From Methanococcoides methylutens MM1 (GTDB lineage Archaea; Halobacteriota; Methanosarcinia; Methanosarcinales; Methanosarcinaceae): a DNA stretch of 64,000 nt. The translations under genes were made by a program, and so were the position numbers. The stretch is from contig NZ_CP009518.1 in NCBI RefSeq assembly GCF_000970325.1, positions 1,116,001-1,180,000 on the forward strand. Direction: 5' to 3'. The notes beneath the pieces were generated by a model. The model was not told the origin of the DNA, did no database searches, and saw only the letters and a list, made by a program, of their open reading frames with translations. How positions within the stretch are numbered: the first letter of the stretch is position 1; every line of letters starts with the position of its first letter. This document shows positions 47,355 through 51,788 of the stretch, in pieces.

Positions 47355-47507
47355 TTACTCTTTTTTAGGCTTACGTTTCTGGAAGCAATCCCTGCAGTAT
47401 ACCGGCCTGTCCGGGTCCGGTACGAAAGGCACGCTTGTTTCCTGACCGCAGTCAGTACACTTTGTTCTGTGCAAATCCCTCGGCCCTTTGAAATCTACTT
47501 TCTTCAT
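47355..47507 (-). CDS. Zinc-ribbon miniprotein, 50 residues
   Basis: A short gene from ATG 47507 (MKKVDFKGPRDLHRTKC). Ribosome binding site GGGGG lies about nine bases upstream. Four cysteines form a treble/ribbon: CTDCG near residue 17-21 and CRDC near 39-42, with the typical VPFVPDPDRPVY spacer and a lysine-rich end. Archaeal and CPR genomes carry many small proteins of this CxxC-CxxC type, often annotated as zinc finger proteins; some relate to translation factors. Function unknown. Confidence 0.8.
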   Translation of the reverse strand: MKKVDFKGPRDLHRTKCTDCGQETSVPFVPDPDRPVYCRDCFQKRKPKKE

Positions 47508-47750
47508 TTGATATTTCCCCCTTGCCATATCTGAAATTGTTCATTCTTGCAGGGTGCAATAGGTTTGCCATAGCGCATGAAATACTCACAAGCTTTTGCC
47601 AGATACTATATTTTCTGTATCAGTTATCTACATCAATATTCCAGCATAAAAATATCAATGTTTCAATGATCCAGATGATCTGAAAGACCCCGAATTGCAT
47701 TTCCCCGGTAAAAAATGATACTCAATTTAATATATACCTATTGGAAGTGT

Positions 47751-49810: not shown

Positions 49811-49868
49811 ATAAAAAGTGTATTCTGATTGGAAAAAACTAGGATTTTCTAAAGGTATATTGCATTAT

Positions 49869-49952
49869 ATGAAGAAAAATGCTGAGGTTGATAAGCCTTT
49901 TACGCTTAATGCACATGTAAAGGAGAGGTTAGAGATGTGGTGTGGGGGTTGA
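49869..49952 (+). repeat. Copy A of a short repeat, encodes a 27-residue peptide
   Basis: ATG at 49869 reads MKKNAEVDKPFTLNAHVKER and on to a TGA at 49950-49952. The DKxFTLNAHVKE segment recurs in copy C and, decayed, in copy B. Whether any copy is translated is unknown; a GTATATTGC box precedes it. Confidence 0.5.
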
Positions 49953-50005: not shown

Positions 50006-51100
50006 TTAAAAAGATTCTGCTGTCCAATAAATATCAACTGATTTTACGATTCCTAGGCTTTCAAAGAATCCCATCATATTTTTATTTCTGGTTTCGTAGA
50101 ACGTATATGCTGGGTCTTTTGTATAATATGCAGAGATAAGACCATATTCTTTTCCAACTTCAATATAACCTATTTTGTCATAACTGTCCAATTCTCCGAT
50201 TTGTTGAGTTGAGCCAGTGCAATCCACGTATACTAAGCCTTTATCCGTAGTTTCAAAGGCATTTAATGCATGACCATCTACATCATCGTAGAAATCAATT
50301 GTTACAAAAGCAGAACGTATTCCTGCTTTTTCTGCCTTATTGTGTAATCTCTCTGCAAAATCTGCACAGACAAAACTATCATCGGCATAAATCAAACGAT
50401 CAGTATCATCTGCCTTTATAAAACCAATCAATTCATCCCATGTTACATCATGAGCATATTCATTGTCAATTAATTCAATTGGTTCACCCGATGCTTTAAT
50501 GAATTGCACTGATGGAACACCCATCGATTCATAAGAAGAATCCCATATTGAAAAATCTCCTGCACTTGTAAATACGAAGTAAGCACCACTCATAAGGACA
50601 ACAAATACTAGCATTGCAGCTATCAACCTTTTAGTAGAGTACCATGTTTCTCTTTTAGGCATAGATGAGGCGACAGGAACAGGGGGACTATTATTACTCG
50701 CTTTTTCCTTCTTTTTTATTACAGGTTCTACTATTACTGTTGAAGACATCATTGATGGAGACTTCGTGGGTTTAGGAATTCCACCTTTCATAAGTAATCC
50801 AATGCAATTGTGTTGTTCTGGTAATCTATGATCTTCACAATATGAGTTTCCACAAAAGTTACACTTGAAAAGGAATTGATAAGTATCTTGAATGATATCC
50901 ATCTTCCCGCCAGTATGGTGACGGACTTGTCCTTTTTTTATGCCTGGAGTTTTCCCACATAAAAAGCACTTGTTTTTACTATTGCTATTATTACTGGTCG
51001 AATCAGTATTATTAAGATTAGTGTCCTTTTTGGGAACGTCATCAGGTAATATTAAATTGCCATTCGAATCTCGTTTATATCCCCTATCTGCTAACCCCAT
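50006..51100 (-). CDS. AN1-type zinc finger, transmembrane helix and transglutaminase-like domain protein
   Basis: 364 residues. Starts with MGLADRGYKRD, a motif shared with the small protein at 51372. An AN1-like zinc finger follows: C45/C48, C80/C83, then C88, H91, H97, C99 (CEDHRLPEQHNC). One transmembrane helix at about 158-176. The extracellular domain has a papain-like/transglutaminase layout: C245 (FVCADFAERL), H277 (DGHALNAF), D293 (VYVDCTG), the catalytic triad order. The combination suggests a membrane-tethered enzyme with a cytosolic metal-binding sensor. Substrate unknown. Low codon use of GC-rich codons; the flanks carry repeats, so recent acquisition is possible. Confidence 0.75.
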   Translation of the reverse strand: MGLADRGYKRDSNGNLILPDDVPKKDTNLNNTDSTSNNSNSKNKCFLCGKTPGIKKGQVRHHTGGKMDIIQDTYQFLFKCNFCGNSYCEDHRLPEQHNCIGLLMKGGIPKPTKSPSMMSSTVIVEPVIKKKEKASNNSPPVPVASSMPKRETWYSTKRLIAAMLVFVVLMSGAYFVFTSAGDFSIWDSSYESMGVPSVQFIKASGEPIELIDNEYAHDVTWDELIGFIKADDTDRLIYADDSFVCADFAERLHNKAEKAGIRSAFVTIDFYDDVDGHALNAFETTDKGLVYVDCTGSTQQIGELDSYDKIGYIEVGKEYGLISAYYTKDPAYTFYETRNKNMMGFFESLGIVKSVDIYWTAESF

Positions 51101-51271
51101 ATCTACTACCTACTGCTTATTTTTTAGACACGTTTTTAAAATATACTATTTTATTATTATAATTTATAGATAATCGATTAAAATGAAAGATTTAATAGTA
51201 TTTTATTCTAATGTTTAGAAAAAGAGGGGGAGCCCCAAAGGCACATTGTAGTACATGGTGTAGAATGCCAG

Positions 51272-51320
51272 AACTGAGAAGCGTTTACCCCCAATGCTCA
51301 TGGGAGGAGAGATTTGAAGA
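51272..51320 (+). repeat. Copy B of the short repeat, decayed
   Basis: The core GCGTTTACCCCCAATGCTCATG (51281-51302) matches copies A and C, but the reading frame of the repeat peptide is broken by TGA. Lies between the two MGLxDRxY genes. Confidence 0.5.
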
Positions 51321-51371
51321 ACACGAAGAATACAACCTAATATAACATACCGATGATTATCTTTAATTTCA

Positions 51372-51563
51372 TTAAATATATGAATACACGATGAATGCAA
51401 TAATTGCTCCTAATATGAATAACCAGAAGGTTGGTTTCTTTTTTCTTGTGTTGACTGATTGAGTATTTGAAAATGAACGATATGATGTTCCATAAGGAAT
51501 GTACTCTAAACGTTCTTTCTTTGAGTGTTTCTCTCGATAATAATCCCTATCCTCTAATCCCAT
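51372..51563 (-). CDS. Small membrane protein with MGLxDRxY N-terminus
   Basis: 63 residues. N-terminal MGLEDRDYYREKHSKKER resembles the start of the protein at 50006 (MGLADRGYKRD). The C-terminus is one transmembrane helix (about 45-62, FWLFILGAIIAFIVYSYI). In between is a basic, serine/threonine-rich linker. Ribosome binding site GGTGAATTT before ATG 51563. The shared N-terminus suggests a common localisation or binding signal for both proteins. Confidence 0.7.
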   Translation of the reverse strand: MGLEDRDYYREKHSKKERLEYIPYGTSYRSFSNTQSVNTRKKKPTFWLFILGAIIAFIVYSYI

Positions 51564-51683: not shown

Positions 51684-51788
51684 ATGAATCGGAATTCTAA
51701 GAGTGATAAAACGTTTACTCTCAATGCTCATGTAAAAGAAATATTAAAGAATTGGGAGGTAGCGTCACTAAATTGCTGTAAATTATAA
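51684..51788 (+). repeat. Copy C of the short repeat, encodes a 34-residue peptide
   Basis: ATG at 51684 reads MNRNSKSDKTFTLNAHVKEI and continues to TAA at 51786-51788. It shares TFTLNAHVKE with copy A and the nucleotide core ACGTTTACTCTCAATGCTCATG at 51711-51732 with copies A and B. Confidence 0.5.

Follow-up and report, generated by a model that had tools for sequence, protein, structure and literature searches.

A shared N-terminal motif of a probable surface protease and a small inovirus-type membrane protein in Methanococcoides methylutens MM1

Introduction

Two adjacent genes of Methanococcoides methylutens MM1 encode otherwise different membrane proteins that begin with the same short motif, and one of these proteins also carries an AN1 zinc finger. 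What does the shared start mean, what does the larger protein do, and does the finger point to a ubiquitin-like or proteasome pathway? We analysed the 64-kb stretch of DNA around the pair (the window, 1.116-1.180 Mb of the complete 2.39-Mb genome). The shared start is the strongest part of the observation and looks like an undescribed docking or sorting tag. The larger protein, of 364 aa, is a probable surface protease, as judged from its sequence and a structural model. The AN1 part of the finding is ordinary.

Results

Layout of the two genes and topology of their products

Both open reading frames are real and lie on the minus strand. The gene of the smaller protein (63 aa) is located upstream of the enzyme gene with a gap of 271 bp. 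Neighbours of the pair, named from their sequence, are a glycine-betaine-type transporter operon and an amino-acid permease. The features of the pair are:

50006-51100, minus strand: gene of the 364-aa enzyme, start at 51100 (predicted order: tag, AN1 finger, linker, transmembrane helix, extracellular catalytic domain)
51047-51100, minus strand: N-terminal tag of the enzyme, MGLADRGYKRDSNGNLIL, aa 1-18, from pattern searches
50804-50968, minus strand: AN1-type zinc finger, aa 45-99, from Pfam (match at aa 76-101) and ligands
50570-50626, minus strand: single transmembrane helix, aa 159-177, positive on the N side (N-in, C-out)
50009-50536, minus strand: predicted transglutaminase-like catalytic domain, aa 189-364, from alignment and model (pLDDT 92.8)
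51372-51563, minus strand: gene of the 63-aa tail-anchored protein, inovirus phrog_13107 kind, start at 51563
51531-51563, minus strand: N-terminal tag of the 63-aa protein, MGLEDRDYYRE
51375-51431, minus strand: C-terminal membrane anchor of the 63-aa protein, aa 45-63

The sole hydrophobic stretch of the 364-aa protein (residues 159-177) carries a charge of +3 on its N-terminal flank and -3 on its C-terminal flank. A low-complexity linker separates it from the AN1 finger, and a C-terminal domain of 176 aa follows. The 63-aa protein also has one hydrophobic stretch, residues 45-63 at its extreme C-terminus, so that it ends in a membrane helix as the initial annotation had stated. Given one hydrophobic stretch in each protein and the flanking charges, both N-termini are expected in the cytosol. 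The charge flanks, a conserved catalytic triad and the model support the earlier description of the 364-aa protein as membrane-anchored, outward-facing and transglutaminase-like.

The shared start in archaea

A DNA pattern for MGLxDRxY gave two matches in the 64-kb window and none in 100 shuffles. Searching the whole 2.39-Mb genome again returned only the pair, with no match of the reversed control pattern, and no other open reading frame of this genome starts with MG[LIVMF]xDRxY. The start that the initial annotation had noticed in both proteins is thus present and exceeds chance. The two variants differ, with MGLADRGYKRD in the enzyme and MGLEDRDYYRE in the 63-aa protein. Beyond the pair, the start is tag-like and opens unrelated small membrane-associated proteins of relatives, bacterial retropepsins and inovirus proteins.

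Relatives carry the same tag (MGLADRDYTKRDSNGN). Searching for GLADR[DE]Y at any position in 112 Methanosarcinaceae genomes yielded 11 matches, nine of which are true protein starts (the remaining two are attributed to chance); the reversed control gave none. The patterns MGxxDRDYxR and MGxxDRDYxxR were found in Methanosarcinaceae alone among 393 genomes of the phylum, and the controls were empty. In several genera of this family the tag stands at the true start of standalone proteins. These have 57 aa (loci L064 and L161), 58 aa (L067 and L068, adjoining an enzyme gene), 62 aa (L070, adjoining an AN1 enzyme gene), 157 aa (L065, adjoining an AN1-TM gene), and 198 and 216 aa (L066 and L069, which have a zinc module and end in a basic amphipathic stretch). 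A further tagged frame of 27 aa (L160) is probably truncated. While several standalone tag genes directly adjoin the same enzyme family or an AN1-TM gene, about half lie away from the enzyme.

On the enzyme itself, the tag was found in three other cases, L080 (MGVMDRDY), L081 (MALDGRDYTKRDKNGN) and L096 (MGLADRDYMRW), whose hosts are a Methanococcoides sp., Methanolobus and Argoarchaeum. Degenerate forms occur in L084 and L086, and the enzymes of L082, L083, L085 and L087-L095 have no tag. With so many family members lacking it, the tag appears to be optional and not needed for the enzyme. Matches to MGVLDREYLG belong to aminotransferase-like proteins and were discarded, as were matches in L063, L071 and L075 that fall inside longer frames. 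Beside tagged genes (L067:1040-1324, L081 at 8827, and L014), small proteins repeatedly begin with a second motif, MGIDR[LV]I.[DQ]QKE. In a search of papers available without subscription, the string DRDYYRE was found in none.

The 63-aa protein, inoviruses and the tag in bacteria

Domain searches with profile HMMs, covering both proteins, confirmed the AN1 finger of the enzyme (PF01428) and assigned the 63-aa protein to phrog_13107 of PHROGs (E=9.4e-6, residues 1-58). An HMM built from inovirus proteins alone also found the 63-aa protein among 13,227 open reading frames with E=1.5e-10. The same HMM ranked tagged bacterial proteases below it (2e-7 to 1e-6) and scored archaeal MGLADRDYTKRD proteins at E of about 0.1-1.5. 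Among 2.9 million viral contigs, MG[LIVMF]xDRDYYR[DE] had 11 matches, all on contigs of 6.3-10.1 kb, which is inovirus size. Most of these contigs encode a 63-91-aa protein with a C-terminal transmembrane helix, and several of the tag genes lie directly downstream of a gene for a Walker-A/Zot-like assembly ATPase. A named Inoviridae genome encodes a similar protein (MGMYDRDWYRED) directly after a Zot-type gene. By its sequence, the 63-aa protein belongs with the small tail-anchored proteins of inoviruses.

The pattern of the MGLADRDYT(K/N)RD kind, typical of Methanosarcinaceae, had no match in the viral contigs. No inovirus assembly ATPase (Zot) was identified beside the 63-aa gene within the window, and none adjoining any archaeal tag gene. 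The Zot family was dropped as a test for inoviruses in Methanosarcinaceae because most genomes match, mostly with 223-254-aa frames that resemble general ATPases, which makes it uninformative.

In bacteria, plasmids of Methylococcaceae encode tagged TIGR02281 retropepsins, in which MGLQDRDYYREKY is followed by a transmembrane helix and an aspartic protease. The 63-aa protein had five matches on plasmids, three of them retropepsins as well, with E-values of 2-4 that serve as a pointer only. A plasmid search with the whole enzyme as query gave zero matches. A further, unrelated family of single-pass membrane proteins starting with MGLKDRDYMRERY occurs on sphingomonad plasmids, many of them conjugative. 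On both methanotroph plasmids (L183 and L184), the tagged retropepsin gene directly follows a DUF6794 gene.

Casposon cas1 relics and mobile elements

Three casposon cas1 relics, all from the 3' end of the gene, flank or separate the two genes:

49821-49949, plus strand: cas1 3'-end relic (Cas1 aa 358-400, 70% identity), convergent with the enzyme gene, flanking the pair from outside
51237-51330, plus strand: cas1 3'-end relic in a more decayed state, in the gap between the genes (best preserved at 51279-51302)
51684-51755, plus strand: cas1 3'-end relic upstream of the 63-aa gene

At this locus we found cas1 3'-end fragments only and no intact casposon. The intact parent is encoded elsewhere in the same genome (Cas_Cas1, E=4e-68). 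The fragment is a dispersed repeat that comprises the last 105-125 bp of the gene, mostly without the remainder, with homology ending at the stop codon. It is present in 8-33 copies per Methanococcoides genome, clustered 1-4 kb apart, and also in Methanolobus. Further relic sites are G004:C9:115000-133000 (L240), L241, L242 and L247. Tag or enzyme genes lie near a cas1 relic or gene at five loci (the window, L066, L069, L080 and L086). This closeness is suggestive only, and as the relics are so common and stand beside many ordinary genes, it is weak evidence; transport of the pair by casposons was therefore set back as the main explanation. Near enzyme relatives, we also observed tyrosine integrases and a prim-pol/D5 protein (L082:2581-3798, L085:10368-11540 and L080:10057-12378), which point to mobile elements.

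One may ask whether the two genes are simply cargo of such elements, the 63-aa protein being derived from an inovirus and the enzyme travelling on integrative elements or casposons and modifying the cell surface, for instance as a block to competing viruses. The inovirus kind of the 63-aa protein, the integrases, prim-pol/D5 protein and full cas1 near enzyme relatives and the patchy distribution within the genus would fit, and inovirus proviruses are present in Methanosarcinaceae (PMC6813254). However, an inovirus ATPase was identified beside no archaeal tag gene, viral contigs gave no match to the Methanosarcinaceae tag pattern, and the high copy number of the cas1 relics weakens the argument from their position. 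We consider the cargo explanation unlikely, although it keeps some weight.

Alternatively, the shared start could result from shuffling at the locus, in which case the small genes would be copies of the enzyme gene that decayed or recombined but retained its beginning, and the motif would have no function of its own. The pair sits between cas1 relics, at a site of repeated insertion and decay, and the 27-aa frame of a relative looks truncated. On the other hand, the small proteins are unlike the enzyme beyond the motif and have basic or hydrophobic C-termini of their own. Additionally, the 63-aa protein matches an independent inovirus family over its whole length, and bacteria have the same start on proteins unlinked to this locus. 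Shuffling thus seems a rather improbable origin of the motif.

The C-terminal domain of the enzyme

The C-terminal domain of the 364-aa protein matched nothing over the cut-off in Pfam or NCBIfam. A scan of 84,980 genomes identified 80 loci with relatives of this domain, in Methanosarcinaceae, ANME-1/Methanophagales, Argoarchaeum, many Dehalococcoidia, other Chloroflexi and one bin labelled Pacebacteria. An alignment of 71 rows, with 70 homologues (Methanosarcinales, ANME-1, Dehalococcoidia), revealed the predicted catalytic residues:

50366-50368, minus strand: codon of predicted catalytic Cys245 (Cys in 69 of 71 rows, Ser in 2)
50270-50272, minus strand: codon of predicted catalytic His277 (His in 71 of 71 rows)
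50222-50224, minus strand: codon of predicted catalytic Asp293 (Asp in 70 of 71 rows, Glu in 1)

A second His (H253) and Asp (D286) are invariant across the 71 rows. In a tree, archaeal and Chloroflexi rows are largely separate, and the enzyme of the window stands beside that of Methanococcoides sp. SMBSF09, followed by Methanolobus. A paralogue of the domain is encoded in the same genome (L002:1108-2148), behind a TPR-like region and a transmembrane helix and beside PQQ-repeat-like proteins.

The AlphaFold2 model of the domain (pLDDT 92.8, pTM 0.88) shows the order Cys-His-Asp in an alpha+beta core with a helix at 57-70 and strands at 89-96 and 100-105. C245 is predicted where a helix makes its first turn, and H277 and D293 on adjacent strands of a hairpin, H277 opening one strand and D293 closing the next. 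This placing argues for an arrangement as in the transglutaminase core, which we take the enzyme motif FVC.DFAE...AGI+A.V...GHA.N.F...YVDCT to resemble. Foldseek with the model gave weak matches (best E 0.04, best TM 0.41), of which the top neighbours are mostly papain- or transglutaminase-like cysteine peptidases (MOA/PSL, 3isr, LapG, IdeS, Gsp amidase and VASH, all weak). Single family members reached Gln_amidase (6e-4), DUF553 (7e-4) and Transglut_core (0.024) in Pfam, all below the cut-off; a PDB sequence search with the 71-row profile returned nothing useful. From the alignment and the model, which give the fold class, we assign the domain to a Pfam-unassigned family inside the transglutaminase-like superfamily.

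Serine replaces the catalytic cysteine naturally in two homologues (L086:4017-4529 and L144:7962-8597). Such exchanges would be expected if the domain were a catalytically dead transglutaminase fold serving for binding or sensing, and a zinc module, a transmembrane helix and an outer domain are also the layout of a sensor. But nearly all 71 rows, which span two domains of life, retain Cys, His and Asp, and we give a dead fold little credence.

Exchangeable zinc modules

All eight zinc ligands listed in the initial annotation (C45, C48, C80, C83, C88, H91, H97 and C99) were read off the protein exactly as given, and the AN1 finger scores 38.9 bits against a cut-off of 27.9 (E=9.5e-10). AN1 stands ahead of the unit of transmembrane helix and enzyme in Methanococcoides, Methanolobus (L082) and Methanosarcina (L090-L093). 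Elsewhere its place is taken by an 8-Cys RING/FYVE-like or IBR-like region (L068/L081 and L095), by a C2H2-like finger in Argoarchaeum (L096) or by zinc ribbons in Chloroflexi (L110, L118 and L136). Some enzyme relatives have no zinc module and a signal-peptide-like start alone. Of 24 near relatives, 21 have AN1 itself, usually as part of a protein with ~265-330 aa; in the genome of the window, the AN1 copy analysed (L003) is an AN1-rhomboid. By sequence comparison, the AN1 finger is one of several interchangeable cytosolic zinc modules and is ordinary in these archaea.

The initial annotation had linked the finger to ubiquitin-like and proteasome pathways, a reading that loses its basis because the finger is exchanged or lost in relatives and common elsewhere; nothing was found that points to ubiquitin-like proteins or the proteasome. 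That AN1 ties the enzyme to such a pathway is very improbable: the finger is a true one over the Pfam cut-off, and in eukaryotes AN1 proteins, among them the membrane-bound ZFAND2B, function in p97/proteasome pathways, but other zinc modules take its place, no ubiquitin-like or proteasome gene was seen adjoining the enzyme gene, and in these archaea AN1 is common on another membrane protein, the rhomboid.

A small zinc protein of 57-64 aa with a CxxC...CxxC pattern is encoded in the window (47355-47528, minus strand) and also at L090, L091, L092 and L241. Near Methanosarcina AN1 enzyme genes it is present in two or three copies.

Discussion

Proposed working of the tagged proteins

On balance, we favour the reading that the 364-aa protein is a membrane-anchored extracellular cysteine peptidase whose tag would act as a cytosolic docking signal. 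The protein would span the membrane once, with its N-terminus in the cytosol and a papain-type cysteine hydrolase domain outside the cell. This domain most likely cleaves proteins or amide bonds between membrane and S-layer; a hydrolase rather than a cross-linker is suggested by the usual activity of prokaryotic members. The cytosolic part may be a docking arm of two independent modules: the tag, roughly 16 residues long (MGLxDRDYxxRDxNGN), and a zinc finger, the type of which varies among relatives. The 63-aa protein would be a separate tail-anchored protein that presents the same tag on the cytosolic face. The tag could act as a short linear signal for a single shared factor in the cytosol or membrane, which would recruit or sort tagged single-pass membrane proteins, and the enzyme and the 63-aa protein would thereby share one place or compete for one partner.

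Tentatively, and with less assurance than for the peptidase, we propose that MG-x-x-DRDY-x-(x)-R[DE] serves single-pass membrane proteins of methanogens, Pseudomonadota and inoviruses as an undescribed N-terminal signal for sorting or docking on the cytosolic side, and that it is often carried by membrane-anchored extracytoplasmic proteases of unrelated folds. The tagged protease folds are papain-like in archaea and retropepsin in bacteria. Two unrelated protease folds are tagged, and most tagged proteins cross the membrane once or are associated with it and have the tag on the cytosolic side, which favours such a role over descent of entire genes from a common ancestor. Should the tag prove to be a real signal, membrane proteins of bacteria, of archaea and of filamentous phages, which assemble at the membrane, would be marked by a single short motif for the same factor, and this factor could be sought directly by pull-down. 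The enzyme family itself would be an unassigned surface peptidase, as predicted, common to methanogens, ANME-1 and Dehalococcoidia.

Comparison with known systems

Compared with casposon Cas1, the casposase (PMC4046053, PMC10359463), the plus-strand relics of the window are decayed 3' ends of this gene. A Methanolobus-like genome (G013) carries genes for Cas1, HTH-like, ribbon-helix-helix-like and HNH-like proteins and DNA polymerase B (L246:3518-9535); the HTH-like, HNH-like and polymerase B genes beside cas1 are as in casposons (PMC4046053).

Compared with AN1-type proteins (PF01428), the finger of the 364-aa protein is replaceable in relatives. The archaeal AN1-rhomboid (L003) has the same finger before a membrane protease in the same genome. 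However, the rhomboid is an intramembrane serine protease, whereas the 364-aa protein is predicted to have a single helix and an outer cysteine domain. With the transglutaminase-like superfamily and the papain-like clan CA (Transglut_core PF01841, DUF553 PF04473, LapG and 3isr), the modelled domain shares a Cys at a helix start and His and Asp on the following strands. In contrast to these, the domain falls below every Pfam cut-off and has its own C-terminal part, and the protein adds an N-terminal zinc module and a transmembrane helix.

The 63-aa gene lies in an archaeal chromosome with no Zot gene identified alongside, but its product is like phrog_13107 and the small inovirus proteins near Zot/pI in its size of 63 aa, the MGxxDRDYYRE start, the basic middle and the C-terminal transmembrane helix. 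Finally, the TIGR02281 retropepsin-like proteases of Methylotuvimicrobium and Methylobacter plasmids are aspartic, bacterial and without a zinc finger, yet they share with the enzyme the tag, one transmembrane helix and a protease domain after it.
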